64,000 bases of DNA from Nocardioides bizhenqiangii (GTDB lineage: Bacteria; Actinomycetota; Actinomycetes; Propionibacteriales; Nocardioidaceae): positions 1,797,501 to 1,861,500 of the forward strand of contig NZ_CP141059.1 in the NCBI RefSeq assembly GCF_034661235.1, written 5' to 3'. The notes beneath the pieces are model-generated. The model worked only from the letters and a program-made list of their open reading frames with translations, ran no database searches and was not told the origin of the DNA. Shown one piece after another: positions 18,923-50,131 of this stretch; positions within the stretch are counted from its first letter, which is position 1; the number at the start of each line of letters is the position of its first letter. Both the position numbers and the translations under genes were made by a program.

Positions 18923-18994
18923 GGGCGCATAGCTCAGCGGTAGAGCTCCTGCCTTACAAGCAGGCGGTCACAGGTTCGATCCCTGTTGCGCCCA
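18923..18994 (+). tRNA. tRNA-Val(TAC)
   Basis: 72-nt cloverleaf without encoded CCA. The acceptor GGGCGCA (18923-18929) pairs with TGCGCCC (18987-18993), with discriminator A. The anticodon stem CCTGC/GCAGG encloses CTTACAA, anticodon TAC, reading GTA valine codons. The T-arm CAGGTTCGATCCCTG is standard. Its 3' 25 nt are duplicated at 19605. Confidence 0.95.
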
Positions 18995-19001
18995 CCGACA
19001 C

Positions 19002-19604: not shown

Positions 19605-19636
19605 ACAGGTTCGATCCCTGTTGCGCCCACCGACAC
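19605..19636 (+). repeat. duplicated tRNA-Val 3' end (att-like direct repeat)
   Basis: These 32 bp are identical to 18970-19001, covering the T-arm, the acceptor 3' strand and seven flanking bases (CCGACAC). The rest of the tRNA is absent here. An exact 3'-end duplication is what tyrosine-recombinase integration at a tRNA gene leaves behind. Confidence 0.8.
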
Positions 19637-19802: not shown

Positions 19803-20441
19803 ATGGAGCGCCCGATCCGGGTTGTACTGGTCGACGACCACACGTACTACCGCGACGGACTGGTGGGCCTGCTCACCGACTGTGGCGTCGACGTCGTCGA
19901 CGACGTCAGCAGCGGCGAGGCGTCATTGGTGTCGGTGCCGAAGCTCCTACCCGACGTGGTCGTGATGGACCTGAGCATGCCCGGACTAGGAGGGGTCGAG
20001 GCCACCCGGCTGCTGCTGGAACGGGATCCGGACACCCGGGTGGTGATGCTGACGGTCTCCCAGGATGAGGAGGACATCCTCCGTGCGGTTTTGGCGGGAG
20101 CACGCGGGTTCGTGTTGAAGGACGGCCCGGTCGACGACCTTGTCCGCGCCGTGTCGGATGCCGCCGCCGGCCTGGCCTACTTCTCCCCCAGGATCGCACC
20201 GAGACTGCTGCGCCACGTGGACGCTCCCGGGCGGAAGCCCACCGGCCCTAACCGGCTCACGGCTCGCGAGGCGGACGTGATCGCCCGGATCGCTGACGGG
20301 GAGGCTCCGGCGCCGATTGCCACTGCTCTAGGTGTCGCGGAGTCCACGGTCCAAGACCTCGTCGCGAGCGTGCTGGTCAAGATCCAGGCCCAGAGCCGCG
20401 GCGAGATCGCGGTAAGGGCGATCAGGGACCGGATCGTGTGA
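19803..20441 (+). CDS. NarL/FixJ-family response regulator (system 1)
   Basis: 212 residues. The receiver domain (5-125) has Asp11/Asp12, the phospho-acceptor Asp56 (VVVMDLSMPG), Thr in MLTVS and Lys in GFVLKDG. The C-terminal LuxR-type helix-turn-helix (about 150-205) begins LTAREADVIARIADG. It is less canonical than usual: the recognition helix reads ALGVAESTVQDLVASVL, and the common KTHV pattern is missing. It overlaps the following kinase gene (stop TGA within GTGATG), so the pair is translated together. It is the first coding gene after the tRNA-Val scar. Target genes probably include the nearby lipoprotein or giant secreted protein, by position only. Confidence 0.88.
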   Translation: MERPIRVVLVDDHTYYRDGLVGLLTDCGVDVVDDVSSGEASLVSVPKLLPDVVVMDLSMPGLGGVEATRLLLERDPDTRVVMLTVSQDEEDILRAVLAGARGFVLKDGPVDDLVRAVSDAAAGLAYFSPRIAPRLLRHVDAPGRKPTGPNRLTAREADVIARIADGEAPAPIATALGVAESTVQDLVASVLVKIQAQSRGEIAVRAIRDRIV

Positions 20442-21922
20442 TGCCCGCGCCGGCCGAGCCCCGCGTCGAGATCTCCGAGGTGCGGTCGACCGGCACCCCT
20501 CTGCAGCGACTCGGCGTGCGGCGGGCCGTCGTGTGTGCACTGGCATTCTGCGCGGTGCTTTCGCTGGTCTTCGAGGCCATCGACTTCGACCCGACCTTCG
20601 GCACTCGTCGGTTCCACGTGGCTCTGGAGACCGCCGACGCGCTGGTCCTGATCGTCCTCGCCGCCGTGCTCCTCGGCCGGTTCCGTAGTGACGGGTCTCT
20701 CCGGAATCTCGTCCTCGCCGCCGGCGTCGTCGTGATTGCCGTCAAGAACGGGTTGTTCGCCGCGAACGCGATGTTCCTCGACGACACCGTTGCCGGCGAC
20801 CACCCGATCGTGTGGGGAACGGCGGTCAGCGGTGTGCTCGGTGCGAGCCTGCTCGCGGCGGCCGGGCTGCTGACGGACCGGCGCATCGACAACTCCCCGA
20901 GGGTGGCCGGTGTGGTGCTGGTCCTGGGCTCCTTCGCGGTGGTGGCGCTGGCGTTGGCCATGAACGCAGTGCACGACTGGCTGCCAACAGCATTCCCGAC
21001 GGTGCCTGACGACGACGAGTTCACCGACCTCGACGTCCTGAGCGGCCACCCAGTCAAGATCGGGATCGACCTGGGGACCTCGGTGGGCTACGCCGTGGCG
21101 GCCGCGGCGTTCGCCCGACTCGCCGATCGCTATCGGGACGACTTCGTCGGCTGGATGGCGGTCGGGTCGGCCATCGCGTCGTGCGCGTTCATCTACTACG
21201 CCATGATCCCGTCGCGGTTCACCGAGCTCCTGTACGGCGGTGAGATCCTCTGGCTCTGCGCGATCATCGCCTTCCTTTACGGCGCCATCTCCGAGATCAG
21301 CAACTTGGAGTCTGCGCTGGTTCGGTCGGCGGTGCGAGCAGAACGCCGACGCGTCGCTCGGGACCTGCACGACGGCGTAGTACAGGAGCTGGCCTACATC
21401 GCGACGCACGGAGGGCGGCTCCTGGAGCAGGTGGGTGGCACGCCGTACGAAGCCTCGGTGCGGCGGATCAGCGACGCCGCGAGCCGGGCGCTCGACGAGT
21501 CCCGCGGGGCGATCGCCGCGCTGAACCGGGAACTAGACGAGCCGCTCCATCAGGCCGTCGGGCTGGCGGCCAAGGACGTCGCGGACCGAGCCGACGTCCG
21601 TTTGGACCTGCGGATCGACCCATCCGTGGAGACGCCGGTGGAGTGGCGGGACGCGCTGATCAGGATCGCGCGGGAAGCGGTGGGCAACGCCGCCCGGCAC
21701 GGGGGTGCGTCGTCTGTGGTCCTCGAGCTGGGCGGCAAGCCCGTGGTGCTGACGGTGAGCGACGACGGGCGAGGGTTCGATCCGGGCGCTCCGCGGTCCG
21801 CGCACAGCTTCGGCCTTCGGAGCATGCGGGAGCGATCGGAGTCTCTGGGGGGTACGTTCGAGGTGCTGTCCACGGAGGATGCGGGAACGACGGTCCGGGT
21901 GGTGGTCGCGCCCTCGTCCTAG
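20438..21922 (+). CDS. sensor histidine kinase, HisKA_3 type (system 1)
   Basis: 494 residues from GTG 20438; the next codon is ATG 20441, equally possible. About eight hydrophobic segments span residues 30-285 with no known sensor domain, so the signal is probably sensed in or at the membrane. The phospho-acceptor His311 lies in RRVARDLHDGVVQEL. The ATPase domain is intact, with an N-box (REAVGNAARHG) and G-boxes (SDDGRGFDPG, FGLRSMRER). The membrane part shares PSRFTELLY and the LP.F......L.HP pattern with the kinase at 43546, so the two are paralogues. It ends 8 bp from the convergent lipoprotein gene. Confidence 0.88.
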   Translation: MMPAPAEPRVEISEVRSTGTPLQRLGVRRAVVCALAFCAVLSLVFEAIDFDPTFGTRRFHVALETADALVLIVLAAVLLGRFRSDGSLRNLVLAAGVVVIAVKNGLFAANAMFLDDTVAGDHPIVWGTAVSGVLGASLLAAAGLLTDRRIDNSPRVAGVVLVLGSFAVVALALAMNAVHDWLPTAFPTVPDDDEFTDLDVLSGHPVKIGIDLGTSVGYAVAAAAFARLADRYRDDFVGWMAVGSAIASCAFIYYAMIPSRFTELLYGGEILWLCAIIAFLYGAISEISNLESALVRSAVRAERRRVARDLHDGVVQELAYIATHGGRLLEQVGGTPYEASVRRISDAASRALDESRGAIAALNRELDEPLHQAVGLAAKDVADRADVRLDLRIDPSVETPVEWRDALIRIAREAVGNAARHGGASSVVLELGGKPVVLTVSDDGRGFDPGAPRSAHSFGLRSMRERSESLGGTFEVLSTEDAGTTVRVVVAPSS

Positions 21923-21930
21923 TCCCGGGA

Positions 21931-22641
21931 TCAGGCGGACCGGATGAAGAACCCGCGCGGGTCGCCCTTCGATGAGCGACCCTTTGCCACGCCTCGCAGC
22001 TCGCCGTTCGAGAGGACGATCAGGCGAACCTGCCCGGCGCGGACGTGAGTCACGTCACCGGCGCGGGTCCCGGTGACGGCAAGCTTGAGGCGCTTGCCGT
22101 CCACCAGGCTCAGCGTTCCGGTTCCCCGGTTGCCGAGCGCTATCTGACCCGTCACACCCAGACCGGCGGCGGACGCGCCGCCTAGCTCTCCGCTGCGCGT
22201 GACCGTCAACTCGTAGAGACCCGCCGAGCCAGTGGGTGGTGTGGCCTCGTACTCGACCGTCCTGCCGCTCGGAAGCGCGACCGTGCCAGTCACCGAGTCG
22301 GCGGTCAGCTCGCCCTCGGTCTCCACGTCTTTGTCCTCTGACTTCGCTGTGAAGCTGTTGTCCGAGATCGGCGCGGAGAACAACTCGCTCAAGCCCTTGC
22401 CGTCGGAGAGGTAGATCTGGACTGCGCCGGAGCCACCCTCTGCCGGTGTGGCCACGACGGCCACGAAGGCCGTCGTGCCCGACACCTTGCCCACGAAGCT
22501 GCCGAAGACTGAGGCGTCAGCCGCGACCGCCTTCGGACCCTTCTCGCCCTCGGGGTCGTCGTCACCGGAGCAGCCGGCGAGAGGTACGAGCAGGAGCACC
22601 ATCAGCATGAACCAGCCATAGGTTCGTGTCCGCTTGATCAT
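21931..22641 (-). CDS. secreted lipoprotein of unknown function
   Basis: 236 residues from ATG 22641, which has AAGGGA about 9 bp upstream; the frame extends to 22677 but without a better start. The signal peptide IKRTRTYGWFMLMVLLLVPL ends in the lipobox L-A-G-C, so the protein should be lipid-anchored at Cys23 on the outer face of the membrane. A short acidic linker is followed by a beta-rich domain of about 190 residues with two similar halves (each with a GT.TL/GTVAL strand and a polar turn). No cysteines follow the lipobox. Family not recognised. It lies directly downstream of the giant gene on the same strand, 83 bp away. Confidence 0.75.
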   Translation of the reverse strand: MIKRTRTYGWFMLMVLLLVPLAGCSGDDDPEGEKGPKAVAADASVFGSFVGKVSGTTAFVAVVATPAEGGSGAVQIYLSDGKGLSELFSAPISDNSFTAKSEDKDVETEGELTADSVTGTVALPSGRTVEYEATPPTGSAGLYELTVTRSGELGGASAAGLGVTGQIALGNRGTGTLSLVDGKRLKLAVTGTRAGDVTHVRAGQVRLIVLSNGELRGVAKGRSSKGDPRGFFIRSA

Positions 22642-22689
22642 CCGTCGGTCCCTTCCACTACGCGGTGACTGATTCATCGTTACCCGTCT

Positions 22690-22737
22690 GCCGGCTTCCG
22701 CCGATATCGGGCTTTGCGCGCTACTCAGGAAGCCGGC
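22690..22737 (-). terminator. hairpin at the 3' end of the giant gene
   Basis: 10-bp perfect arms GCCGGCTTCC (22690-22699) and GGAAGCCGGC (22728-22737). They flank a 28-nt loop that holds the giant gene's stop codon and a self-complementary CCGATATCGG. It could end or attenuate transcription before the lipoprotein gene. No T-run. Confidence 0.4.
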
Positions 22738-25700
22738 TTGAAGGTCAGGACGAGCTGGGGAAGGTTGCTCCCCTTCTCCCGTGCGTGGAACTGCTGTTCA
22801 GCATCCTGACCCTCGGTGGCGTCCTTGACCAGGAAGCCGTGGTTCGACCCACTCGAGAACATCGCCTGGACCATCGCAGCCACGTTCCACTCGCGGTAAC
22901 CGGTTGCCGACGTCGTCGTGACCGCCGCGCCGGTCGTCTGTGGCGCGGTCGCCCAGGTCACGCTGCTCTCCGTCCATGACCCGCCGAGCCGGAGCACCTG
23001 GAGGGTGCGCTGGCTCCCGGAGGCGGAGGCCGCGTACAGGCGCAGCTTCGCCGTGTCGACCACGCAGCCTGCCGGGATCGTCGGGAGGTTGAACCGGATC
23101 AGTGCTCGCAGGTTGGCGCTCCCCTTGGACATGACCTTGAGGATCGAGTCGCCGCCCTTGTTCGCCGATGCGCTGCTCTGATCGATCCACGCGTCGGCGA
23201 CGGACGTCACGGTCTGCGCCGAGCCGCAGTTCACCGGGGTGCCGCCCGACTGGATCGTCCACTGCTGGTTCGCGGGCGTCTGGTCCGTGTTGCCGGCCGC
23301 GTCGGTTGCGCGCACCCGGAAGGTGTGCTGGCCGACGGACAGGTTCGTGTAGTCCTTCGGCGAGGTGCACGCGTTGTAGGGCCCCTGGTCGAGCGAGCAC
23401 GTGAACGTCGTACCGGACTCCGGGGACTGGAACGCGAACTGCGCGCTCTTGCTCGTCGTCGACGCCGCAGGTCCGCCCGTGAGGACGGTCTCCGGCTCCG
23501 TCCGGTCGATCGTCCACGCGTGGACGGCGGCAGTCGGGTCGACGTTGCCGGAGGCGTCCTTGGCCCGCACCCGGAAGGTGTGCGACCCGTCGGCGAGGCT
23601 CGAGTAGTTCCTCGGGTTGGTGCACGGGGCCCACGACGAGGTCTCGGGGACGTCGAGCTGGCACTCGAAGGTCAGGCTGCCGGCCGGCGTCGTGTCGTCG
23701 GTCCCGGTGAAGGTGAACGAGGCCGAGGTGCTCGAGGTGGCCGGCAGCGGGCTGCCGGTGATCTGCGTCTCGGGCACGCCGTCCGGCGGTGCGCCGGTCC
23801 CGAACGTGATCACGAGCTGCGGCCGGTTGGTGCTCTCCTCGCGGCTGTGGAACTGCTGCTCGGCGTCCTGGTCCTCGTTCGAATCACCCAGCAGGAAGCC
23901 GTGGTTCGCACCCGTGTACATGGCTTGCACCATCCCGGCCACGTTCCACTCGCGGTAGCCGGTGCCGGAGTTGGTCGTCACTGCCGGGCCCGTGGTCGCC
24001 GGCTGGTTCGCCCAGGTGACCGCGCCCTCGGTCCAGGACCCACCGAGCTGGAAGACCTGCACCGTGCGGCCGCTGGCTGCCGACTTGGCGTAGAGGCGGA
24101 GCGTTGCGCTCGCGACCGTGCAGCCCGGCGGCATCGTCGGCAGGTTGAACCCGACCAGGGCGCGCAGGTTGCCGCCGCTCTTGGACATGACCTTCAGGGT
24201 CGAGTCGGAGCCCTTGTTCGACGTTGTGCTGCCGGCGTCGATCCAGGCGTCCCTGGTGGCCGTCAAGGTCTGCGTCGCGCCGCAGTTGACGGTGGTGCTC
24301 TGGATCGTCCACGAGTAGCTCGCTGCGCTCTGGTCCTGGTTGCCGGCGGCGTCCTTGGCCCGGACCGAGAAGGTGTGCTGGCCGACCGCGAGACCCGTGT
24401 ATGCCTTCGGCGTCGTGCAGGGCTCGTACCCGCCCGTGTCGAGCTTGCACTCGAAGGTCGATCCGGTCTCCGTCGAGGTGAAGCCGAACGACGCGTTGGT
24501 CTCCACGGTCGTCGCTGGCGGCTGGGCGCTGATGGACGTGTCGGGCGCCGTCGTGTCGGCCGGAGCCTGGATCGTCCAGGAGCGGCTGGCCGACGACTGG
24601 TCGGTGTTGCCGGCCTGGTCCTTCGCCCGCACCTCGAACGTGTGCTGACCCACCGAGAGGCCGGTGTAGGCCTTCGGCGTGGTGCACGGTTCGAAGCTGC
24701 CCGTGTCGAGCTTGCACTCGAAGGTGAGTCCGGCCGCCGGAGTCCCGTCGTCGCTGCCGGCGAACGCGAAGCTCGCGCTCGTGTTCGTGGTGTTGTTCGT
24801 CGGGGCACCGGTGATCGTGGTGTTCGGGGCGGTCGTGTCGGCCACCGTGAACGTGCGGCTGTCGGGCTGCCCGACGTTCCCGGCCTGGTCGATGGCGCGC
24901 ACCTGGAAGGTGTGGTCGCCGGGCGACATCGCGCTCAGCTCGGCGCTGGTGTACGTCTTCGGGCTGGTGCACGCGCCGTACCCCGCGCTGTCGACCCGGC
25001 ACTCGAACCGGAGGTCGCCGACAGCCGTGTGGTCGTCGGTGCCGGTGAACTCGACGACCAGGGAACCGCTGGTCACGTTCGTGATCTGCGCCTCGGGATC
25101 GACGACGTCCTCCACCGTCCAGGTGTGGGTCTCGGTCCGCGCGTTGTCCGCGGAGTCGGTCGCCCGCACGACGAACGTGTGCTCGCCGTCCGACAGGCCG
25201 GAGTAGGACTTCGGCGAGGTGCAGGGCGCGAACGTGCCTCCCTCGAGGCGGCACTCGGTCGTGACCGCGCCGCCCCAGTTGTCGCTGGTGCTGAAGCTGA
25301 ACTGTGCGGTCGTCTCGGACGTCGTGGCCGTCGGCTTCTCGCTGATCGTGATCACCGGCGCGGTGAGGTCGGCCACCGTCCAGGTCCGGCGCACCGTCTC
25401 GCTGGCGTTCTCACCCTCGGAGAGGTCCTCGGCGCGGACATCGAACGTGTGGGAGCCGCGTTCGAGGCCTGTGTACCGGATTCCGGACTGGCACGCGCCG
25501 AACGGGGCTCCGTCCAGCGAGCACTCGAAGATCACCGGCTCGCCGGCCGAGAAGTCGAACGTCGCCGTGGAGGCGTCGACCGTGCCCGTCGGCCCGCTGT
25601 CGATCGTGACGTGCGGGGCCGTGAGGTCGGCGACCTCCCACTCGAACTGCGCGGGCAGGAAGCTCGCGTGGCCGGCGGCGTTGATCGCCTGCACCTCGAA

Positions 25701-40700: not shown

Positions 40701-42719
40701 CAGGAACAGGGAGCCGCGCACGATGATGGCCTGGTCCGGGGCGTTGGCCAGACCGCCGCCGATCTGCGCGGTGTTCCCCCGGATCGTCGAGTCGTTGATG
40801 TGGAATTCGCCGCTCGAGGTGTTGTAGATGCCGCCGCCAGCCTCAGCGGCCCGGTTGCCGGAGATCGTCACACGACGGAACGTGACTTCGTGGGCGCTGT
40901 TCTCCAGGCCGCCGCCGTCGAACGCGTGGTTGTTGGTGATCGTGGTGTCCACGATCTCGATGTCGCCCAGGTTGTGGAGGCTGAGGCCGCCGCCCTCGTC
41001 GGTCGCGTCGTTGCCGTCGAAGGTCGATCCCCGGACGGTGACCAGACCCCCGTCGGTGTGCAGGCCGCCGCCGCCTGCGACGTCGTCGGACATCAGGCCG
41101 TCCTCTTCGAGGTGCGGCACGCCGGCGTGGTTGTTCGTGAACGTCGAGTCAGCGATCACCTGTTTGCGCTCGCTGTGGGTCCAGACGCCACCGCCTTCGC
41201 CCCAGGACTCGTTGTCGCGGACCGTGACCCGGGTCAGCGTCAGGCTCGCCCGGCCCTCGCTGGAGATCGCGGCGCCGTGGTCGGACGAGTGGTTCCGCGC
41301 GAAGGTCGAGTCGGTCACGGACATCTGCGCATCACCGTCGTTGAACAGACCACCGCCGTTCTCGGCGGTGTTCTCGATGAACTGCGTGCTCTTGACTGTG
41401 AAGGTGCCGCGCAGTCCGTGCTGCGACTCGTGGCCGCCGCTGTAGAGACCGCCACCGTTGGCGGCGTCATTCTTGGAGATCGTGCTGCCGGAGACGGTGA
41501 CCTTGCCACCCTCGGTGTAGAGCCCACCGCCGCTCGAGGACGTGTGGTTCTCGGTCAGCGTCGAGTTCGTCACTTCGACGATGCCGTCACCCTCGTTGAG
41601 CACGCCGCCGCCGTTGCCCTCGGCCGCATTGAGCGAGACCGTCGAGTCCGAGATCCTGATGGTGCCGACGGCCTGCCACTCCCCGAGGTTGGCGATCGCG
41701 CTGGCGGCGATCGGGTAGTCGGACGGGTCGGCCAGGACCATCTCTTCCGGGTCGAGCGGGTCGGGCTTGATCGGGCCGGGGTTCAGGGTGACCCTGGTCT
41801 GGGCGGAGATGGTGATGGTCCCGCCCGAGGTGTTGTTGATGGCGCCACCGGTGCCGCCGCCCGAGCCGTTGCCCGTGAACGTCGAGCGCATGATGTCGAT
41901 CCGGCCGTACGGGAGCAGATCGAGGCTGGGCGGTTCTGTCGTCCACGGGTAGTCGTGGACGTCGCCGTTGTTGACCCCGCCACCAGCCTTCTCGGCATAG
42001 CTGTCCTTGACCGTCACGCCGTCGAGCGTCAGCTTGCCGAGCGACCAGTTCTGGATGGCGCCGCCCTCCTCGGGGCTGTAGCCGTTCTGGAGAGTGACGT
42101 TCCGCATCGTGACGTCCCCGGCACCGGGGTGGATCTCGAAGAGCCGGTCGAGGCCCCGAGCGATGACGGGCGAGCTCGGCAGGGGCGTGCCCCCGTCGAT
42201 GATCACGTCGCCGAGGTAGTCGGGGGCCTTCTCGATGGTCACAGGGTCGGTGATCTCGAAGTCGCCGACGTTGGCGGCGTTCTCGTTGATCGGCGCCAGC
42301 CCGATCGCGTAGGTGCCCGGGAGGATGTGGATGACGTCAGGACCGGCCTTCGCGTTCGCCTCTTGAGTCGCGGCGCGCAGCGTGCAGTTCCCCCCGGCCG
42401 CCTTGCACACGCCGTCGCCGATGTTGGCGTCGACGGCGTCGACCGTGCTGTTGACCACGAAGGCGCCCGGCAGCGCCGCCTGAGCTGAGCTCGGCACCAT
42501 GCCGAGCACGGACACAGCGAGAATCAGTGAGAAGAGACTAAGGACCAGGACGCGAGGCACGCGTCCGGAGAGACGAAGGAGCCGTCGCACGACGCTCGCA
42601 CGCATGGGGTGACGTCCGACGCGTCGTGCGACGACCGCTCGATGCCGTTTCCCAGGTCGACTGTTCGCTCCCCGTGTCGTACCAGAGATCAGGGCCCGTC
42701 CCTCGTCGGAACCGCTCAT
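22725..42719 (-). CDS. giant secreted beta-helix / Ig-like repeat protein
   Basis: 6,664 residues in one open frame. ATG 42719 has GGGGGA upstream; ATG 42605 is the alternative. A signal peptide ends at SSAQA-A near residue 108. Then, approximately: CSLREA domain (115-150); beta-helix 1 closing with a choice-of-anchor-Q block (to 885); two Ig-like modules; DNRLRE 1 (1120-1305); beta-helices 2 (1320-1755), 3 (2150-2580) and 4 (2775-3165), separated by Ig-like modules. After that come mostly Ig-like modules to 6140, interrupted by two related 120-residue modules (4190-4320, 5390-5510). DNRLRE 2 and 3 lie at 6140-6310 and 6490-6664. I count about 37 Ig-like modules of the F-x-C-x-L-D ... C-x-S-P ... 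V-R-A-x-D type, each with two cysteines. No enzyme domain, sortase motif or C-terminal membrane segment is visible. Probably a cell-surface or released structural/adhesive protein; the function is inference. Confidence 0.93.
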   Translation of the reverse strand: MSGSDEGRALISGTTRGANSRPGKRHRAVVARRVGRHPMRASVVRRLLRLSGRVPRVLVLSLFSLILAVSVLGMVPSSAQAALPGAFVVNSTVDAVDANIGDGVCKAAGGNCTLRAATQEANAKAGPDVIHILPGTYAIGLAPINENAANVGDFEITDPVTIEKAPDYLGDVIIDGGTPLPSSPVIARGLDRLFEIHPGAGDVTMRNVTLQNGYSPEEGGAIQNWSLGKLTLDGVTVKDSYAEKAGGGVNNGDVHDYPWTTEPPSLDLLPYGRIDIMRSTFTGNGSGGGTGGAINNTSGGTITISAQTRVTLNPGPIKPDPLDPEEMVLADPSDYPIAASAIANLGEWQAVGTIRISDSTVSLNAAEGNGGGVLNEGDGIVEVTNSTLTENHTSSSGGGLYTEGGKVTVSGSTISKNDAANGGGLYSGGHESQHGLRGTFTVKSTQFIENTAENGGGLFNDGDAQMSVTDSTFARNHSSDHGAAISSEGRASLTLTRVTVRDNESWGEGGGVWTHSERKQVIADSTFTNNHAGVPHLEEDGLMSDDVAGGGGLHTDGGLVTVRGSTFDGNDATDEGGGLSLHNLGDIEIVDTTITNNHAFDGGGLENSAHEVTFRRVTISGNRAAEAGGGIYNTSSGEFHINDSTIRGNTAQIGGGLANAPDQAIIVRGSLFLNNTARIGTPGEDGELPEEAGRGGGIMSFADGDSLYENTTISGNKAAVAGGGLFHDADGELRLVHMTIWRNSAPTGGGIGVVESDFVPPVPPAANSAVILKNSIVGGSVKGGNCDWYVRSEGGNLETGEKNTCFLAVTAETAESPIELGVRDRRGDPQLLAIADNGGPTLTHALQYGSLAIDSSKKPCSTVDQRGIVRPQNGRCDAGAYEYVGDPPVTDNQPPETEFNYPEDGPFQDALETMAFRFRGTDNQTAPHELNFECRFLELDLVEEPEPVAPWDPIPPEEMWNGCSSPWSVPLPEEGLFRFEVRAIDRADNTDPTPVSQLISGVGMTPPDTKIVEAPGLTPGQTVPPAPATTPRTNSRSALFSFMAISDFTPSQFAEYECRLDSRDPDMWLECFNPTMFSDLATGLHTFEVRAIAGEAAGPDPTPARYTWRVGPDPDDPGATPISCDEANITLTASADGWADQVNPLENYWTMTELEVRSGATDPGNGQPLTPQNARSFFRFPLQSDAPDCELESATLRLYSGGHTEDRTLAAVPLAETWKESTLTWVSQPDPVPGGIGATTAAGEGYREFDVKAHIEAIFAGELPNHGWVIRDRHENDLEGGDQNFISREAPQDPPEITLPELELRFEPADTPPPPPRDDTLVDRVVACGEVITESTRLMADVTGCLSEGIAIGAPNIILDLNGHTVRSGLLLEPGEEDNLTPGIRNGYPNVEIRNGTVTNYGYGVLLGPGSTHSEVHDMTLVRNALTGVQLFDADNGRIGNWVHDNVFDSNGETGLQLMSGTEGALIENNYFVSNGMSIHLFDSHRNLIRNNTISGIIIDPALDSDAGIVLDNGSRNNVLENNDISDTGDAGIVIHQGSHGNIVRGGVLVRNGDAGVIVQDADRIEVDGILAHQQSDGGVVLSNSSNSVVKNSDLRYNPSGVDASGTNNLIVENNNASNSLQTGIALGDGVNMIVRNNTANRTGGAGISVDASAFDATGNAVGGALVEGNTTNENAESGISATTARHTIRGNTANLNSGYGIEAGEESVAGEPPDPNRNIDGGGNKAAGNHSDGVTPGLPDAVQCLGVVCETVDPGGVTEPDLEAPQTTITVTPPAVTGNETSVFEFTANDGPTGDPVTAMTFECRIDAPPDPPVPPEDPELEPPDPTEPPDLPEPPEGEFWVACSSPLTYLSLEPAMDHHFEVRAVDQAGNFDLTPAEYTWRIEAGVHEDGTEECGPGETLGVDCKVAGAAPDTRITAAPGELITDAAGTRYDTTNQAATFKFTGSDNLTAGYNLRYECRTYFDEFNDELTPADIPETLEWGSCGSPKSYANLAHGGHIFQVRSVDLVANKDTTPASHAWWIHPPPPDTTAPDTEIVSGPDPTTVQTSATFTFTGSDNQTPTEELAFQCRLDGALEAGQPAWTTCTSPYTVNGLTPAQHVLQVRAVDLGGNVDDVNGSVDNPSAPVADDPSDGVPAAYVWKVGTAPVTKTVFCGQKVTQSIKVNNNLADCLAHGLIVGADNITIDLNGKTIDGKSIGAAILNNGYDSVTIKNGRLTDFDYGVMLNNGAELNIVEGITADLNQDAAISLGHGTFPEDPNLAPAEPVPGFRSGVDNNILRSNTLVSNKRGVWLLNGAKDNVVRGNLIGSTSDEAVWIERAESNLVEGNDIQSASKGGVLLEGATDNTILENSIVGAGSGVIVRATTSGTIGIESTGNLVQGNHISDSAGPSLEIESSSANQLIDNIGELSDSYAIELYRANDNLVRGNDVSGNKGGVSLRESTGNLIEGNDTSNSDSTGITLESQSFSNTLLNNSSSNNVGGGIYIGDEAPAGQGTLVQGNTTNSNKSEGIKASKPSHIFKDNVATDNDSWGIYVGDPSNGRANIDGGGNIAQGNDGPLGVDLKPQQCYNISCLGGPGGGDQIAPNTNILETPLDQSTESVAVFRFTGADNSSPVTFECRFAPQAEFADAGWQACTSPKTYQDLVNDTYSFEVRAVDFSGNADQTPASYTWAVELGDFKASIDSAPDRVTVDTGATFEFSANRSTGVDFQCVLQPAGGAVDWASASACTSPKTYAGLEPGQYEFWVRATDTATSTYDTQMYAWTVGPPPVAARVNCGQILTESTRVLNDLVDCGGHGLIVGAPGITIDLDGHVIDGLGLDAGILNNGHDDVTITNGLITQFLYGVQLNPGTARNVVHDLRIEGNEEAGIALSDADQGADGNTIRDNSIVANEIGIALYTGTRHAVIRGNTLAANLGEGAIVLEFASENLIEGNQIGQSAASGVSLLGGGSNTVTDNVLKDNGGMGIMAGDDLLQSNNNLIQRNTIRGGQGGVMVAGDGNTVINNEALGTTGPGVTVELATNTVVKGNDFSGSAGGIVVGEATNTLIEANNASGTLGSGIEVGEFSLDSVVRDNTASGNGGAGIEITESSVLDRGTLVENNTTDANGGDGIYVEGAGHEIKGNVAQLNGGWGIYSVGAEDGGGNFAAGNMEPDQCFGVVCELGTVPGAPDTWIVSGPQDANAATPAIESNSRNASFTYLGADDTSPITDLVFECRLDSTNSLAWEDCEYPAEYLNLSPGEHTLDIRAIDMLGQGLADPTPASFTWTYVPLPTGVAPEVILDVVPETPTFLFDAIFTFHANEPDVTFQCKVDANGYEPCGFEAATYMSQGAYEWALAENEVGQHTFSVRAIDFEGNVGAPTTFTWELMGVNVVVTDGPGFVPASGGPQGDPATGGPTASTSAEITFEANVADAQFWCRFDSMDPGDYFPCESPFRVGPAFAGDTEYPDPLLPGDHVLEVYGESETMGSAAELEPTVYEWEVVDAIDTLPPETTIERAPVTADLSSTVFEFSGVDDLTPEFLLTFECQVTNGTAPPNDLNWVACTSPFNLLDAYSYADPEMSMAQHTFYVRAVDMSEPEFPNPNQPEFEGNPDPTPASFTWTPVADTRDPVVNISGGPADGATVGQEPELYTFSGLDNATPLLLLEFECAAYLTAAGVESAEWASCESPVAGGYDISGLEPGAYTVAVRATDLAGNIGPAATRAVTVSGAPVVTFLSGPDGRLDPVSGEPDGASGTENAVFTFESDQPGSTFECSVDGADYLPCGGTTLPASGAAWVVDNGEHQFSVRATNAQGIVGEEAAYEWLVQLSADVNAPTSQFRTGPENGTLLQEAIFTFTGTDNRTPSADLAFECALDSTTSWNSCTSPEQFSDLTRGTHTLRLRAVDAAGNIQATPAVYTWTVAPPPVVTILSGPGVDQEETTDRTVTFTYSADVSPVTFHCWLDGKFNPHAPGDPTKPAPCDPAGETYADLGIGEHLFAVRAVDEFGNIGVWEDSEFRVTPSEARITSAPASGTNTTASFEFTSDPSDPNAVFYCSLDDRPFSLCNDTPVDGSPGTYRKTYTNLWAGEHTFQVQTLYTGVDWQGLPFEHDPIPAEHTWTVQDFTAPDTTIEFGPPATTTSTTAYLQVNSDDPTATIECTLTGPTGTEQGECEPGVITEFTDLVPGDYTFSAVATDLSGNVDPSPATHEWTIGTPSGPPNTPVGDNVTVTVGDVKVTYFEVETAGTTTANRLGGGPSLPEGYGGGKYYEISTTAVYSEPITVCINYDPADFGGSKSLRLLSFDGEVWLDVTTLHNPFSTPARVCSNIAEDFGLFAIARASSGMAPETSILSGPEGPLGPDGLPTSTSGSATFEFWTDQENAITQCSLDGDPYFYCESPLTVGPLEEGGHELLVQAVNDFGWMDLTPALYEWEVIGPDVTPPTTTITSGPPEGSQTPNFISNFEFAGTDDMTPTLELEFECTLDGEAIGGCESPEEIEVTTPGEHTLLVQAIDGADNIDPVGATRTWTVVDMSGPDTEILVGPEEETTETSATFEFEGFELLNDEPVNQFECALDDGEFAPCSSPHTIAGPLGGGVHVFHVRAVDPDGNKDISPAFYEWMILGADDTTPPDTFITTYPNPANSGPDVTFGFASNEPVESFECSWGTGTPPAAPTTWEECETVLLLEALDSGQHWLWVRALDAAEIPNVDPTPAGRDRGFGPNDTEPFVWTTTGEPETIIDSGPADPTGSYTATFEFHSDQPGATFQCSVNGSPYVGCSSGYQAGPFLPGEGGEPEEHEFEVRAVNQYRNADGEQVMDLSPATYTWTVQDVTPPETEFLGATEIGPEQFVDPGLRFTFRGDDEQASSFELEFECAITNSTAGDAPVWEGCGEPAAGDSFFHEIAFEDYLESPGDYTFQVRGVDLAGNADETPVPQPAYEFTIEGEPETAIDTVTPAIAEPDLETTSTTVTFTFSGTGASFLCRLDSETGPFVECPGGAPGQATYTDVPYGEHAFEVAAVGEHGTLDSTPALFEWVSGTNVAPDVTINQATAPPATGGTATTGTIEFSSTDPQATFLCVLDGGPELPCISPITYTNLPAGEQNPHAFEVTATRADLLPSVPLNTALHEWVIADEAAPEARLLEPLPTDPSADEVTFTFTGSDNGTTAANLEFECRLDGGEWIPCSSPHTIPDLTGGEHTFAVRAIDETALTSAPVSHTWDVIAPPLTTITNQVAGADVPAGETSASATGELSFFDQPGSTYECRLDAQYAADPDAVPWEQDCTSPYPYDLANGEHVFEVRAKTLPLNGQTMTESPAAEYSWMIDAADTTAPNTAINLGPANPTSNTSATFLFDGTDNLTAAADLTFECSLDGATFEGCASGDVYADLAVGDHTFAVRAIDGAGNTDDSPAEQAWTIEAPTANNTDVGTNVAVSVGGANITFAEVTAAGATSVSTITAGSAPDLPNGYDAADALYYDVSTTAQFVGNVTVCLPYDALVDAHVLHFDGEWVDVTLEQQGGLVCGVVSSLSPFAVAEASAEVAPDTTIIQAPEDPTVQTTADGADVQFQFSSTIDSVEHPASFECRLDAEQWSSCDSPYQFNALFGEHTLRVRALTDTGVLDATPAVYTWTVLARPVATVDSGPEDQEPSTPDVENESRTATFEFSSDQPGSTFECRLTSEAGGTTWQACTSPKTYQNLALEEHTFEVQAINAAGHASFLPAQFEWEVADLTAPHVTIDSGPTGTVDASTATFDFSAGEPVIFECSLDGAPFGACQSGIRYTGLERGSHTFDVRAEDLSEGENASETVRRTWTVADLTAPVITISEKPTATTSETTAQFSFSTSDNWGGAVTTECRLEGGTFAPCTSPKSYSGLSDGEHTFVVRATDSADNARTETHTWTVEDVVDPEAQITNVTSGSLVVEFTGTDDHTAVGDLRFECRVDSAGYGACTSPKTYTSAELSAMSPGDHTFQVRAIDQAGNVGQPDSRTFTVADTTAPNTTITGAPTNNTTNTSASFAFAGSDDGTPAAGLTFECKLDTGSFEPCTTPKAYTGLSVGQHTFEVRAKDQAGNTDQSSASRSWTIQAPADTTAPDTSISAQPPATTVETNASFGFTSTETGSTFECKLDTGGYEPCTTPKAYTGLAVGQHTFSVRAKDAAGNQDQSAASYSWTIQSTTVNCGATQTLTATRDAWIDAGSTTSNKGSDSTLKVMSKSGGNLRALVGFNLPTMPPGCTVASATLRLYAKSAASGRTVQVFQLGGSWTEGAVTWANQPATTGPAVTTNSGTGYREWNVAGMVQAMYTGANHGFLLGDSNEDQDAEQQFHSREESTNRPQLVITFGTGAPPDGVPETQITGSPLPATSSTSASFTFTGTDDTTPAGSLTFECQLDVPETSSWAPCTNPRNYSSLADGSHTFRVRAKDASGNVDPTAAVHAWTIDRTEPETVLTGGPAASTTSKSAQFAFQSPESGTTFTCSLDQGPYNACTSPKDYTNLSVGQHTFRVRATDAAGNTDQTPANQQWTIQSGGTPVNCGSAQTVTSVADAWIDQSSASANKGGDSILKVMSKGSANLRALIRFNLPTIPAGCVVDTAKLRLYAASASGSQRTLQVLRLGGSWTESSVTWATAPQTTGAAVTTTSATGYREWNVAAMVQAMFSSGSNHGFLVKDATEGQDAEQQFHAREKGSNLPQLVLTFKPAS

Positions 42720-42818
42720 GGCGGATCCCCCAAACCTACTTGTAGCGGTCCCGAGACCATCGGGTTCGATGGAACGCCACTTGCGCCGGCGGCGCATGAC
42801 GCGGCGTGATCAAATAGC

Positions 42819-42835
42819 GTTCAGGTGCTCTGAAC
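42819..42835. promoter_or_regulatory. palindrome upstream of the giant gene
   Basis: GTTCAG-N5-CTGAAC, 100 bp before the giant gene's ATG and 34 bp after the stop of response regulator 2. NarL-family regulators bind inverted repeats of this size, so it is a candidate operator. No second copy was seen near system 1. Confidence 0.35.
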
Positions 42836-42868
42836 GGGCGGACTACGAGCGAAGTCGCTTCGCGGGCG

Positions 42869-43549
42869 TCAGCTGCCGCGGTGGTGAGCCCGCCCGGGCG
42901 CCGTACGCTGGCGGCGGAGGAGCTCGATCCCCTCGTCCCGGGAGGACACCTTCAGCTTGGCCATGGCGTCTGAGATGTGGCGCCGCACCGTGATCGGCCG
43001 GACCCGCAGGTGGAGGGCGATCTCTCTGGTGGTCAGGCCCTCGCGCAACAGGTCGAGCACGTCCCACTCCCGCGGTGTGAAGACCACTTTCCGACCTTCC
43101 GCGTTGGTCATCGATGCGCCCTGGGAGCCTTCGCGAAGCTTGTCCACGACAGCGGCCGTGAGCTGGCCGTCGAGAATCGTGTCGCCCTCCAGCGCCGACA
43201 GAACAGCGCGCGGCACTTCGGCGCTCGCGACGTCCTTGAGCAGGTAACCGACCGCCCCCCGCTCGAATGCTTCGAGTACGTCGGCGTGGTCCGCGGAGAC
43301 GGTGAGCATGATGCAGCGGGTGTGCGGGAGCTCCTCAAGGATGGTGCGGAGCGCCCACAGCCCACCCCCCGGCATCGCGATGTCGAGCAGGCAGGCGTCG
43401 GGGAGCGTCTCGCGGGCGAGCTCGACCGCGCGGAACGCGGTGTCCGCCTCGGCGACGACCTCGCAGCCCCCCTCTTCGAGCGCCATGCGGACCCCCGCCC
43501 GGACCGGACGGTGGTCATCGGCGATCAGCACCCTTGGCATCCGGCTCAT
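42869..43549 (-). CDS. NarL/FixJ-family response regulator (system 2)
   Basis: 226 residues; ATG 43549 overlaps the kinase stop as ATGA. The receiver domain (5-125) has Asp11/Asp12, phospho-acceptor Asp56 (ACLLDIAMPGGG), Thr in IMLTVSAD and Lys in GYLLKDV. A canonical LuxR helix-turn-helix follows (about 160-215): FTPREWDVLDLLREGLTTREIALHLRVRPITVRRHI. The regulator lies directly upstream of the giant gene on the same strand, 149 bp apart, and is the obvious candidate to control it. It is more canonical in its DNA-binding part than the system-1 regulator. Confidence 0.9.
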   Translation of the reverse strand: MSRMPRVLIADDHRPVRAGVRMALEEGGCEVVAEADTAFRAVELARETLPDACLLDIAMPGGGLWALRTILEELPHTRCIMLTVSADHADVLEAFERGAVGYLLKDVASAEVPRAVLSALEGDTILDGQLTAAVVDKLREGSQGASMTNAEGRKVVFTPREWDVLDLLREGLTTREIALHLRVRPITVRRHISDAMAKLKVSSRDEGIELLRRQRTAPGRAHHRGS

Positions 43550-44985
43550 GGCACGGTCACCTCCCAGGTCGTCCCGCCGTCGCTGTTGCTTCGGATCGCC
43601 AGTTCACCATTGATCCGGCCCAGGCGCTCGCGGATGCTGGTCATGGTGGTGTTCGCACCCGGGATCTCCATCGTCCAGGCGACGTCGTCACTGATGCGCA
43701 GGATGGTCAGGCCGTCCTGGTGAAGGTCGATGCGCACCGTGCCGGCGCGCGCCTGCCGAACGGCGGCACCCACGGCGTCCCGAGTAACCCGGACCAGCGC
43801 GAGCCGGACGTCGGGTTCGACTTCGACCGACTCGTCCAGGTCGAGCTCGAGCCGAATGCCCTCGCGTTCTGCGATGGTCTCGGCCGTCAGTCCGATCTGT
43901 GCGGCGAGTGACTCATCGAACGGTCCGCGAAGCTGCCTGATCGCGGTCCGCGCCTCGTCCATGGCACGATCGGCGGACTCCTGGATGCGCTGCAAGCCGA
44001 CATCCGTCGACTCGGGGTGACTCTGGATGCGGTGCGCCTGCGCGGACACGATGGCGATCTCCTGCGCCACGCCGTCGTGCATCTCCCTGGCGATCCGGCG
44101 TCGCTCGTCGTACAGCGCGCGATCAACGAGAGCGGCCTCCGCCACACCGACCTCCCGGACCGATCCAACGAGCAGGGCGGACACGGCGAGCAGGAAGAAG
44201 TAGTCGCCGAGGTACAGGAGCTCGGTGAAGTGGGAGGGGAAGAGGGCGTAGTTCACCGACGACGCCGTGGCCAGCACCGACGCTGCCGCCAGCCACCAGG
44301 TGAGCTCGTCCTCGGAGCGTCGCGCTACCTGGGTGAACAGCACCGCGGCCATCGCCCAGCAACCGGCCGTGAGAATCTCGAGCAGGTAGAGCGAAGGGTG
44401 ATCGCTCAGGAACGTGGCGTCGCCGACTGCCTCCGGCCGCGTCTCGAAGGTAGCGGGAAGCCTGTCGCGGAACGTCCACACCAGGAGCGTCATCACACCG
44501 AAACCGACTGCGGCTCCGACGAACGTGCGGATCAGGGTCTGGCGCAGGCGCCGAAGAGGTTCGTCCGGCAGCCACGCCGCGGCGGCAAGCAGCACCGCTC
44601 CGGCCAGTCCGTTGACCGTGGCCGTCCACGTCGCGAAACGGTTGGTAGAGATCGAGTCGAAACTCGCCGTGAGCAACGCCGAGAGCAGGTTGTCGACGGC
44701 AAGCATGCAGAGCGCCATGAACAGCATCAGGTGCCGTCGGGTCGGCCGTCGGCGGACCCGAGCCCACAGGACCGCCGCAATGAGGGTAAGCACCATCGCT
44801 GCTGCGACCTCGAGCTGTCCTTCGTGCAGGTCGTCGATTCTCACCACGCCGAGAGTGGGTCGCTCCTCCGCGGCCCCCGGGACCAGGCGGGCGATCGAAA
44901 CCGCCGCAGTGACCACGAGGGCGGCCAGGGCGGTGGCGACGATGAAGAGGACCGGGCGTGCCGGGCTCTTTACCCGAGGAGGCAC
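43546..44985 (-). CDS. sensor histidine kinase with degenerate ATPase domain (system 2)
   Basis: 479 residues from GTG 44985; TAACCT 6 bp upstream suggests a leaderless transcript. Around eight membrane segments fill residues 10-275. His303 lies in RRIAREMHDGVAQEI. The ATPase domain is unusual: the N-box reads RVTRDAVGAAVRQA, without the Mg-binding Asn, and the G1 box reads SDDVAWTMEIPGA instead of DxGxG. Kinase activity may therefore be weak or lost, leaving possibly a phosphatase or a partner of the system-1 kinase. The membrane part is paralogous to that kinase (PSHFTELLY, LSDHP). It is co-translated with the regulator downstream. Confidence 0.87.
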   Translation of the reverse strand: MPPRVKSPARPVLFIVATALAALVVTAAVSIARLVPGAAEERPTLGVVRIDDLHEGQLEVAAAMVLTLIAAVLWARVRRRPTRRHLMLFMALCMLAVDNLLSALLTASFDSISTNRFATWTATVNGLAGAVLLAAAAWLPDEPLRRLRQTLIRTFVGAAVGFGVMTLLVWTFRDRLPATFETRPEAVGDATFLSDHPSLYLLEILTAGCWAMAAVLFTQVARRSEDELTWWLAAASVLATASSVNYALFPSHFTELLYLGDYFFLLAVSALLVGSVREVGVAEAALVDRALYDERRRIAREMHDGVAQEIAIVSAQAHRIQSHPESTDVGLQRIQESADRAMDEARTAIRQLRGPFDESLAAQIGLTAETIAEREGIRLELDLDESVEVEPDVRLALVRVTRDAVGAAVRQARAGTVRIDLHQDGLTILRISDDVAWTMEIPGANTTMTSIRERLGRINGELAIRSNSDGGTTWEVTVP

Positions 44986-45114
44986 CTTTCGAGGTTAGGA
45001 CCACCGGGGAACGGCCGCAACGACGATGATTCGATGACCTGTTGCGGCCGAGGCAACCTGCAGCCGAATACTTGCGTCTGTGTCTACAAGGATCCCTTGA
45101 CGACAGGAGTGACG

Positions 45115-45645
45115 ATGAAGCGGGCAATACTGGTCATGGTGGTCGGCATCATGATGTTGGGCATGGGCGCGACCTCTGCAGGGGCCGAGACCAGAAGCAA
45201 GTCCGATTCCAGCGGTGACGCCGTGCGGCAGATCGACATCACCCGGTTGACTGTGACGAACGGCGACCACCGTGTCGTGATGCGGATCAAGGTCCGCGAT
45301 CTTCGCAAGCGTGGCGTCTTCAACATCCACTACTGGGGCGGAACGACGGGGACGCCGCCCGCCCGCAGTGCGATCGTCTCCACGCGACTCGTCGACGGCG
45401 AGCGCACGGTGGAGTACCTCACCTGCGACCGCGAGGAGTGCGAGGAGGTGCGGTGTCGGGGGATGAGGCTCGACTGGCGGCCGGGCGCCGACGTGATCGT
45501 CATCTCGACGCGCCAGAAGTGCTACCCGCGCCCGCGCAGGAACCCCGATGCTCCGGCGCCAGGGGTCGGCCGGTTCTTTGCGTCCGCGGAGTTCTCCGAG
45601 GACATCGACTCCACCAACGGGCTGCTGACGGTCCAGCGCGGCTAG
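45115..45645 (+). CDS. secreted cysteine-containing protein, first of two tandem paralogues
   Basis: 176 residues; ATG 45115 with AGGAG about 6 bp upstream. The signal peptide MKRAILVMVVGIMMLGMGATSAGA-E is cut after AGA. The mature domain starts SSGDAVRQIDITRLTV and has strands typical of a small beta-sandwich. A C-x4-C-x4-C cluster (TCDREECEEVRC) is followed by one more Cys (QKCYP), giving two likely disulfides. The next gene has the same layout. It is divergent from kinase 2 with a 129-bp shared promoter region. I do not recognise the family. Confidence 0.78.
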   Translation: MKRAILVMVVGIMMLGMGATSAGAETRSKSDSSGDAVRQIDITRLTVTNGDHRVVMRIKVRDLRKRGVFNIHYWGGTTGTPPARSAIVSTRLVDGERTVEYLTCDREECEEVRCRGMRLDWRPGADVIVISTRQKCYPRPRRNPDAPAPGVGRFFASAEFSEDIDSTNGLLTVQRG

Positions 45646-45672
45646 CCTGACGCCCGAGAAGGGGAACCCACC

Positions 45673-46197
45673 ATGAGACGAACGATCCTGGCCCTCCTGT
45701 TCGGAGTGCTGGTCCTGGGCGCTGGGACAGCGCCAGCGGCGGCGGAGAGCGGGGGCGTCAACGATCCGAGCGGTGATCTTCCGGAGCGGATCGATGTCAC
45801 TCGCCTCGACGTGGAGAATGGCAGGCACTGGTTCACGATGCGGGCGAAGGTCGTCGACCTGCGGGCCCGGACGGGGACCTTCGAATTCAACTACTTCGCG
45901 CGCACCCAGGACGGCGACCCCACGAACGACCGGGGCGTCATCATCGCAGTCGACCGCGTCAACGGTCAGACACGTGCGCGGTTCTATGGGTGCGGCTGGA
46001 AGGACTGCAGTAGGGATCCCTGCCCACGAATGCGAGCCGGGTGGCTCCCGGACAAGAACATCGTCCGGGTGAGGGCGCCGCAGCGTTGCCTCCCGTGGGA
46101 CGCCGCACCGCCCCCGCGCGGCGTCTTCCACGTATACAGCCATGTGGGCCCGGTGTGGAAAGACACGACCGAGGAGCTGGTGCTCGACCGCGGCTGA
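45673..46197 (+). CDS. secreted cysteine-containing protein, second tandem paralogue
   Basis: 174 residues; ATG 45673 preceded by GAAGGGG. Signal peptide RRTILALLFGVLVLGAGTAP ending AAA-E. The mature start PSGDLPERIDVTRLDVENG matches the upstream gene's SSGDAVRQIDITRLTVTNG, and the cluster C-x4-C-x4-C (GCGWKDCSRDPC) with a later Cys (QRCLP) is conserved. The two genes are therefore a tandem duplication, 27 bp apart and surely co-transcribed. Role unknown; secreted, probably disulfide-stabilised. It ends 3 bp from the convergent superinfection-immunity-like gene. Confidence 0.78.
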   Translation: MRRTILALLFGVLVLGAGTAPAAAESGGVNDPSGDLPERIDVTRLDVENGRHWFTMRAKVVDLRARTGTFEFNYFARTQDGDPTNDRGVIIAVDRVNGQTRARFYGCGWKDCSRDPCPRMRAGWLPDKNIVRVRAPQRCLPWDAAPPPRGVFHVYSHVGPVWKDTTEELVLDRG

Positions 46198-46587: not shown

Positions 46588-46965
46588 ATGAAGATCAATC
46601 CGCTTCGGATCATGACCCTGGGGCTCGCAGGACTCGTTGCCTCTGGCCTGATGGCGTTCCAGTCGAGCGCCACCGCCAGCGTCGACCAGTCCGTCATCAA
46701 GCGCGACGAGGACACCGCGGACGTGGTGCTCACCGACGACGACGATGACGACGACAGCAACCGGCTGGCACGGGACACCAACACCAACACCCGGTCCCGC
46801 TCCGGGAACAGCAGGGACGGATCTCGCACCGGTGACCGCAGCGGCCGCGACGACAGCCGCAGTGGCCGACGCGTGAAGGACTGGACCGGCGACAACACCA
46901 ACACCCGCAAGCGTGACTGGTCGCAGAACCGGACCAACGACCGGTCGCGCCACAACACCCGGTGA
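46588..46965 (+). CDS. secreted charged low-complexity protein
   Basis: 125 residues; ATG 46588 with AAGGAAGGG about 9 bp upstream. An N-terminal signal sequence (KINPLRIMTLGLAGLVASGL, cut near SATAS) is followed by an acidic run (TDDDDDDDS) and a tail of Arg/Asp/Asn/Ser/Thr repeats (DTNTNTRS, GDNTNTRKRDW). No cysteines and no folded domain; likely disordered outside the membrane. It is followed after 4 bp by a Ser/Thr kinase-like gene, so the two form an operon. The shared palindrome upstream links it to the acidic protein at 50132. Function unknown. Confidence 0.72.
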   Translation: MKINPLRIMTLGLAGLVASGLMAFQSSATASVDQSVIKRDEDTADVVLTDDDDDDDSNRLARDTNTNTRSRSGNSRDGSRTGDRSGRDDSRSGRRVKDWTGDNTNTRKRDWSQNRTNDRSRHNTR

Positions 46966-47894: not shown

Positions 47895-48009
47895 GCGTCG
47901 AATCGACAAGCTTGGCGCGTTCATTCGACGCTCTTGGTTGCCGAGCGCGCCAGGATCGTCGATTCGGCGCGCCATTGCCGTCGATTCGGCGCGCCATTGC
48001 CGTCGATTC
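47895..48009. repeat. intergenic inverted and tandem repeats
   Basis: A 9-bp inverted repeat GCGTCGAAT / ATTCGACGC (47895-47903, 47923-47931) is followed by 2.4 copies of a 22-bp tandem unit (47957-47978, 47979-48000, partial 48001-48009) that shares the core CGTCGATTC. The gap separates two convergent genes. It is probably terminator-related; the last partial copy overlaps the stop codon of the regulator. Confidence 0.75.
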
Positions 48010-50082: not shown

Positions 50083-50131
50083 GGAAACGCCCGACCGGTG
50101 GGGTCGGGCGGCCGTGCGTGGCTCCCGGGTG

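Follow-up and report, generated by a model that had tools for sequence, protein, structure and literature searches.

A giant secreted protein of Nocardioides bizhenqiangii in a probable cassette with paired membrane sensors

The locus described here lies in a 64,000-nucleotide stretch of the genome of the soil actinobacterium Nocardioides bizhenqiangii (NCBI RefSeq assembly GCF_034661235.1, contig NZ_CP141059.1, positions 1,797,501 to 1,861,500 of the forward strand), to be referred to as the window and numbered from its first letter. It belongs to a 4.55-Mb single-contig genome of the same genus as Nocardioides gansuensis and N. astragali. One gene in the window encodes a giant secreted protein (the giant). 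A lipoprotein gene follows it, and on each side there is a pair of genes for a NarL-type response regulator (RR1, RR2) and a multi-pass membrane sensor kinase (HK1, HK2). These six genes form a conserved, mobile and probably self-regulated cassette. For the locus as a whole, a laterally mobile surface-protein cassette that carries its own switch is the best explanation, with a probability of roughly two in three. It is rarely known what makes a cell devote 20 kb of coding sequence to one surface protein. In this locus a likely switch can be named, together with its DNA site and the sensors. Each part is of a known kind, and no description of the whole combination was found in Creative Commons-licensed papers of PubMed Central.

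The six-gene block and its putative operator

HK2, RR2, the giant and the lipoprotein are arranged in this sequence on the minus strand, while RR1 and HK1 converge toward them on the plus strand (Table 1). The lipoprotein gene is located 47 bp behind the giant, and its end is separated from that of HK1 by 8 bp. The layout given in a preliminary description of this DNA is borne out: two paralogous systems flank the giant (Response_reg and GerE in both regulators, HisKA_3 in both kinases), a lipoprotein with a lipobox-like LAGC follows it, and two tandem secreted proteins lie beyond system 2.

The giant is present in three of the 215 Nocardioides genomes searched. In all three, the six genes keep their order and orientation, within three different surroundings. 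The identities of the N. gansuensis and N. astragali proteins to those of the window are 59-60% for RR1, 64-65% for HK1, 61% for the lipoprotein, 56-60% for RR2 and 52-54% for HK2. Two intact sensor copies are found in these three giant carriers and in none of the 212 other Nocardioides genomes (Fisher, 6e-7), in eight of which a lone sensor copy adjoins a secreted protein other than the giant. N. gansuensis and N. astragali have in common one secreted gene beyond HK2 (87%) and kin of an extra giant-like protein, and no other flanking gene is common to the two in the stretches fetched. The extra protein of N. astragali (2,195 residues, with CBM96 and β-helix domains) is encoded between HK1 and the lipoprotein (L052:10105-16692, minus strand).

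In a sample of the Jiangella family, 5 of 22 genomes carry a giant. It has about 6.6 thousand residues in two genomes, one of which (G617) also has a form of 4.1 thousand, and the other three have the 4.1-thousand form only. J. aurantiaca and G617 keep both the giant and the lipoprotein (66%), but an OmpR-type regulator/kinase pair is located before the giant. The same arrangement is seen in all four Jiangella-family loci examined (six were found), including those of two shorter giants (G617 and G622). Therefore, the core consists of the giant and the lipoprotein, and the control unit is exchangeable. The aligned giants of J. aurantiaca (81.0%) and of N. gansuensis and N. astragali (80.1%) are equally close to that of the window, which is the pattern that lateral transfer would give. 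The co-occurrence of sensors and giant, which the preliminary description proposed to check, thus holds in the three giant-bearing Nocardioides, but not in the eight that have sensors and no giant, nor in the Jiangella family, where the giant loci examined lack the sensor family.

Jiangella-family giant loci with a preceding OmpR-type kinase and regulator are L129, L130, L133 and L055. In G617, a NarL-type pair is located behind the lipoprotein (L128:9478-11270, minus strand), in the place of HK1-RR1 in Nocardioides and in the opposite orientation. Its kinase domain alone matches HK1 (33%), the membrane part does not, and its regulator is 42% identical to RR1. Among metagenomic homologues of HK2, the lipoprotein and the giant, P0221 and P0031 come from contigs of equal length (24,570), as do P0236 and P0107 (34,383), which hints at linkage of these genes.

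The gap between RR2 and the giant contains an inverted repeat, GCGTTCA-N6/7-TGAACG, which was found by comparing the three RR2-giant gaps. The pattern CGTTCA-N5-8-TGAACG has one exact match in the whole 4.55-Mb genome, in this gap. Eight of nine single-sensor loci of Nocardioidaceae have the repeat, with at most one mismatch, upstream of the secreted neighbour, at a distance of 44 to 150 bp to its called start. The ninth locus (G234) has two sites with two mismatches each. Tandem sites are spaced by 21 bp (G096, G235, G196 and G136) or 42-43 bp (G160, G593 and G234), corresponding to whole helical turns. Each of the three Kribbella-like loci (G046, G038 and G048) has a one-mismatch site by the sensor pair. 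In N. gansuensis, such sites precede HK2 and two more genes that apparently encode secreted proteins. N. astragali has a one-mismatch site before HK2 and an exact one before a single gene for an apparently secreted protein.

The repeat is concentrated at the sensor loci. In 12 Nocardioidaceae sensor genomes, 17 of the 28 exact matches fall in the sensor locus, as compared to 0.16 expected, three of the 17 being the discovery sites. Exact matches outside the locus (0.92 per sensor genome) are about as frequent as in 25 non-sensor Nocardioides (0.88; 22 matches). For gaps of 6-7 and at most one mismatch, the sensor loci have 30 matches in 403 kb, and the loci of other kinases have 3 in 599 kb. 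The repeat was not found in the Jiangella-family giant promoters, which are under OmpR control; one match with one mismatch lies inside a kinase gene there. As the secreted neighbours differ in kind and the OmpR-controlled giants are without the repeat, the operator follows the regulator and not the target.

A receiver domain and a LuxR-type helix-turn-helix (HTH) are present in both regulators. The HTH of RR2 is canonical and resembles those of the single-locus regulators. That of RR1 has diverged, and the RR1 branch in the regulator tree is very long. RR2 is therefore the likeliest binder, and these sequence comparisons make control of the giant by an RR2-type regulator very probable. In the proposed switch, RR2 or a regulator of its family would bind the palindrome and set transcription of the giant, and the lipoprotein would be transcribed by read-through from the giant. 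The earlier proposal that the giant has its own paired sensors gains from the presence of both systems in all three giant-bearing Nocardioides and of a putative operator at the giant promoter.

Several observations weigh against this assignment. The motif was defined after sight of three giant promoters. In G196 and G136, the sensor and secreted genes are divergent, and the sites between them could act on either one. In seven distant sensor genomes (three Kribbella-like and four others), none of the 14 exact matches is at the sensor locus. One-mismatch locus sites occur among them in the Kribbella-like genomes only, and there is no site within one mismatch at G391, G333, G400 and G273. Moreover, no palindrome with up to one mismatch is present at RR1-HK1 in the three Nocardioides, or before HK2 of the window. 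RR1, or RR1 together with RR2, could be the binder.

A predicted secreted protein of at least 450 residues is encoded within 2.5 kb at 11 of 16 sensor loci, including all nine single-sensor loci of Nocardioidaceae. The controls give 3 of 13 for the remaining HisKA_3 loci in this genome, where one further locus yielded no kinase match, and none of 20 for the loci of a single orthologous kinase. With the threshold lowered to 250 residues, the difference vanishes (13/16 sensor loci, 9/13 and 13/20 control loci). The signal-peptide rule is crude, and as a result the sensor-target claim rests on the operator and not on the neighbours. These are of varied kind (HYR/PxKF, OmpL47-repeat/PxKF and coiled-coil proteins). 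Through the operator, an entire sensor family is tied to secreted repeat proteins of several kinds, so that one assay covers many loci. Many single-sensor loci (L071-L073, L076, L077 and L031) have a small open reading frame (ORF) beside the regulator, which is DUF6907 in the one tested (L072). None was seen in the window.

Table 1. Features of the locus in window coordinates
Feature	Position	Strand	Basis or remark
tRNA-Val(TAC), left edge of variable slot	18923..18996	+	ARAGORN; equivalent tRNA-Val in slot of 4/4 relatives fetched
31-bp repeat, copy 1 (tRNA 3' end + CCGACAC)	18971..19001	+	exact; 0 in 100 shuffles
31-bp repeat, copy 2	19606..19636	+	two copies in genome in total
RR1, NarL-type response regulator, divergent from RR2 in recognition-helix region	19803..20441	+	Pfam Response_reg + GerE
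HK1, multi-pass sensor kinase, ATP-binding motifs intact	20438..21922	+	HisKA_3; HATPase_c 44.5 bits
Lipoprotein, predicted all-β (barrel)	21931..22677	-	lipobox-like LAGC; orthologues next to giant
Giant secreted protein, 6,664 residues from ATG 42719 (6,690 from ATG 42797)	22725..42719	-	full-length homologues 79-83% identical
Giant CBM96/DNRLRE domain 1 (residues 1155-1324 of 6,690-residue form)	38826..39335	-	Pfam PF24517, 62.2 bits; NF033679
Giant CBM96/DNRLRE domain 2 (residues 6175-6331)	23805..24275	-	PF24517
Giant CBM96/DNRLRE domain 3, C terminus (about residues 6525-6690)	22728..23225	-	PF24517, second stretch; boundaries approximate, by eye
Inverted repeat CGTTCA-N7-TGAACG, putative RR2-type operator	42818..42836	.	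sole exact genome match, gaps 5-8
RR2, NarL-type response regulator, canonical HTH	42869..43549	-	Response_reg + GerE
HK2, multi-pass sensor, predicted pseudokinase	43546..44985	-	HisKA_3; HATPase_c 16.3 bits, cut-off 26.4
Secreted Cys-containing protein 1	45115..45645	+	34% identical to protein 2
Secreted Cys-containing protein 2	45673..46197	+	34% identical to protein 1

The two sensor kinases

HK1 and HK2 belong to a sensor family whose average shows eight transmembrane-like segments. With a profile of the membrane part, the family is found in 11 of 215 genomes of the genus and 7 of 394 of the class (E 1e-10). In G154, the sensor appears as two adjacent pieces with a stop interrupting it. 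The motifs quoted in the preliminary description (PSRFTELLY/PSHFTELLY and LSGHP/LSDHP) are present in the two kinases, which are indeed paralogues (33-36% identity; sister clades, 100/98, in a 21-row tree). Each is monophyletic in this tree and the branching is identical, with long stems for both, so that attraction is possible. A 62-row tree, for which the ATPase region was left out and 9 duplicates or fragments were dropped from 71 rows, has HK1 as a neighbour of the HK2 clade, and five metagenomic rows stand between them. MASE3 (PF17159, cut-off 31 bits) is not reached by HK2 (25.4 bits) or HK1 (11.8 bits).

There is a clear asymmetry, however, in this duplicated membrane sensor. Both kinases exceed the HisKA_3 cut-off of 24 bits (HK1 40.7, HK2 53.3). 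HK1 also passes that of HATPase_c (26.4 bits), and its N, G1 and G2 residues are intact. HK2 of the window has lost all four scored ATP-binding residues (the N-box Asn, both Gly of G1 and the Gly of G2) and retains the phospho-acceptor His, and by its sequence it looks like a pseudokinase. At least one of the four residues is gone in 18 of 21 members of the HK2 clade, as compared to 1 of 41 kinases elsewhere, and the His is kept in all 21. The HK2 proteins of N. gansuensis and N. astragali narrowly pass the HATPase_c cut-off (26.6 and 31.4 bits). A subclade of 3 of the 21 is intact and N. gansuensis HK2 retains three of the four scored residues, both of which speak against this reading.

The two eight-segment sensors would share the membrane domain and the HisKA_3 dimerisation domain, and may form an HK1/HK2 heterodimer. 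HK2 is probably unable to use ATP alone, yet it keeps the phospho-acceptor His. HK1 would phosphorylate HK2 within the heterodimer, or drive RR2 directly, and HK2 would hand the phosphate to RR2. In other systems, DivL is not known to have a phospho-acceptor His. GacS/RetS and DivL-CckA are cases in which a kinase is modulated via heterodimerisation or by a catalytically inactive kinase-like partner (from an extract of PMC12189002). Those partners are hybrid kinases or DivL. HK2 instead keeps the His, has lost ATPase residues and has its own regulator adjacent. An active kinase paired with a His-bearing pseudokinase is a natural test of a sensor kinase split over two genes.

A more far-reaching reading, which we consider doubtful, is that HK1 and HK2 form an obligate split kinase. 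HK1 would provide the ATPase, and HK2 a second phospho-acceptor His and the path to RR2, such that the giant is made only with both. The lipoprotein would then report giant assembly at the membrane. In relatives, a lipobox-less extracellular domain joined via a transmembrane helix to a cytosolic IS3 OrfA-like HTH (see below) would make surface assembly a direct signal for transcription. A metagenomic protein (P0245, 529 residues) has, in one ORF, an HK2-type HisKA_3 domain with no HATPase_c match, followed by an RR2-type receiver and HTH. It may be a true fusion or a frameshift.

HK2-RR2 as a decaying duplicate, with HK1-RR1 as the true controller and the ATPase loss as erosion (or HK2 left as phosphatase or decoy only), seems unlikely. 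The motif loss does vary by lineage, as erosion would give (A, S, H, T, R or L at the N-box), and HK2 is less conserved than HK1. However, erosion alone should break the HK2 frame or H-box too, and the frame, the His and the membrane domain are kept across metagenomic homologues to about 47% identity. In addition, the regulator at the palindrome is RR2, with the canonical HTH, and the diverged HTH belongs to RR1.

The giant protein and the lipoprotein

The ORF of the giant (22725-42797, minus strand) has 6,690 codons when counted from the first ATG. The earlier size of about 6,664 residues matches the in-frame ATG at 42719. This start is preferred, as it is preceded by GGGGGA, an in-frame ATG is located 96-98 nucleotides behind the operator in all three giant-bearing Nocardioides, and the upstream ATG at 42797 is not in frame in N. 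gansuensis, although all three share the CGTCATG that surrounds it.

The longer form has a predicted mass of 702 kDa and a pI of 4.15. Searches with Pfam and NCBIfam find Beta_helix (339 bits, in the N-terminal half), NosD (258 bits), Big_13/OmpL47-type repeats, choice-of-anchor Q domains and CSLREA (TIGR04214, CSLREA_Nterm; 25.4 bits, cut-off 25). CBM96 is above its curated cut-off of 26 bits in both halves of the protein (62.2 and 205.1 bits), with three modules. A profile from the giant's own repeats gives 37 Ig-like units between residues 941 and 6499. The match to the NosD copper-insertion family TIGR04247 (96.1 bits) is below its cut-off of 300.

A protein search finds at least 94 homologues of the giant among 840 candidates scored. 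The named full-length relatives among the matches listed (98% of the query) are from J. aurantiaca (83%), N. gansuensis (81%) and J. alkaliphila (79%). More distant ones listed are from metagenome-assembled genomes (MAGs) of Gaiellaceae (68% over 99%) and Anaerolineaceae (41% over 89%). Across 33 aligned giants, the least conserved regions are residues 1-250 and portions of the final 1,700. In a pattern search of genome contigs, 5 of 145 matches are true relatives of the giant (J. aurantiaca, N. gansuensis, N. astragali and two contigs of one MAG). In an actinobacterial MAG contig (L041), the tail of a giant (16-7875) is located directly before the head of another (from about 8168).

From its domains alone, we infer that the giant is a polysaccharide-bound surface or matrix protein. 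The product would be an elongated, acidic protein of about 700 kDa, in which β-helices are combined with three CBM96 modules and some 37 Ig-like repeats. These domains would hold it on a polysaccharide, either of its own cell or of a foreign surface. A point against this is that the ligand is extrapolated from one characterised CBM96 (alginate).

The homologues bear the names of right-handed β-helix or CSLREA large repetitive proteins, and the giant itself has CSLREA_Nterm, choice_anch_Q and DNRLRE domains. Names of the CSLREA type assign no function, and the flanking paired sensors and the operator are in none of the descriptions found. Giant1-5 of Apilactobacillus kunkeei are extracellular surface proteins of 3,000-8,000 residues with sequence exchange between genera, and Giant1-4 have an N-terminal β-solenoid (abstract of PMC12863079). 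They are likened to the giant of the window by description alone; CBM96 and paired sensors are not mentioned in that abstract.

We think it improbable that the giant is, instead, a secreted polysaccharide-acting (lyase-like) machine and not a structural surface protein, with the sensors responding to its substrate or products. The β-helix blocks (Beta_helix and NosD) and the three CBM96 modules are compatible with such a machine, and CBM96 was defined in an alginate lyase (extract of PMC9971899). On the other hand, no polysaccharide lyase or glycoside hydrolase family is found for the giant at E 0.001 in Pfam and NCBIfam (no carbohydrate-enzyme library was searched), and Ig-like repeats make up most of its length.

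Orthologues of the lipoprotein (61-66%) adjoin the giant in J. aurantiaca, N. gansuensis, N. astragali and G617. The AlphaFold model has a mean pLDDT of 81.6, and residues 54-149 gave a fold match. In the rows for barrel lipoproteins of the TbpB or factor H binding protein type, the identity is 8-17%, and with a Gram-positive host no role with iron or host proteins is implied. The predicted barrel lipoprotein is the likely membrane-side partner of the giant. Some of its homologues are fused to an IS3 OrfA-like HTH and a transmembrane helix (P0149, P0177, P0181, P0190, P0193, P0199, P0204, P0207, P0213 and P0215), and the lipobox Cys is gone in all nine tested. By sequence, a domesticated transposase HTH has apparently been made into a membrane-bound regulator in these proteins.

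The insertion site and neighbouring genes

The tRNA-Val integration scar noted earlier at the start of the locus is real in that the 31-bp repeat of the tRNA 3' end is exact, but it does not bracket the locus, as its two copies in the genome are about 600 bp apart and both left of RR1. The repeat is therefore a scar at a variable slot. Two island ends were considered and rejected: there is no third copy, and the best other matches have 7 mismatches of 24. The slot was compared in four relatives picked among the best HK3 matches, with flank gene names assigned by eye. All four have syntenic flanks. One flank has tRNA-Val(TAC) and a gene resembling thiol peroxidase, and the opposite flank has RR3/HK3 together with genes that resemble a Ser/Thr kinase and an AMP ligase. 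The distance from tRNA-Val to the Ser/Thr kinase is 2.7 to 10.7 kb in these relatives, with other genes in between, and 27.9 kb in the window. No integrase was noticed among the called genes, and no profile search was made. The T-arm of the window tRNA-Val (18950-18996) is unlike those of the four relatives, as if its 3' end had been replaced.

The RR3/HK3 pair (48008-50409) was considered as a third part of the system and rejected, as 65 of the 98 Nocardioides genomes searched have HK3 (at E 1e-60). Its best homologues in N. gansuensis and N. astragali are located far from the giant. RR3/HK3 is in the same wider family as the giant-linked pair of Jiangella (38-42%). That the two NarL-type systems are likewise chance neighbours of a horizontally acquired giant, with no part in its regulation, is very hard to credit: the sensor family is without a giant in 8 of 11 sensor-bearing Nocardioides, the Jiangella-family giants are without the sensor family and RR3/HK3 is such a bystander, but the gene order is the same across three surroundings, two sensor copies are found solely with the giant, and the operator is present at the giant and at other secreted neighbours.

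In the stretches fetched around the other giants, no counterpart of the two Cys-rich proteins beyond HK2 was found. A small, apparently secreted Asp/Asn/Arg-rich ORF (46588-46965) is located beside the Ser/Thr kinase, and similar ORFs are present there in some relatives.

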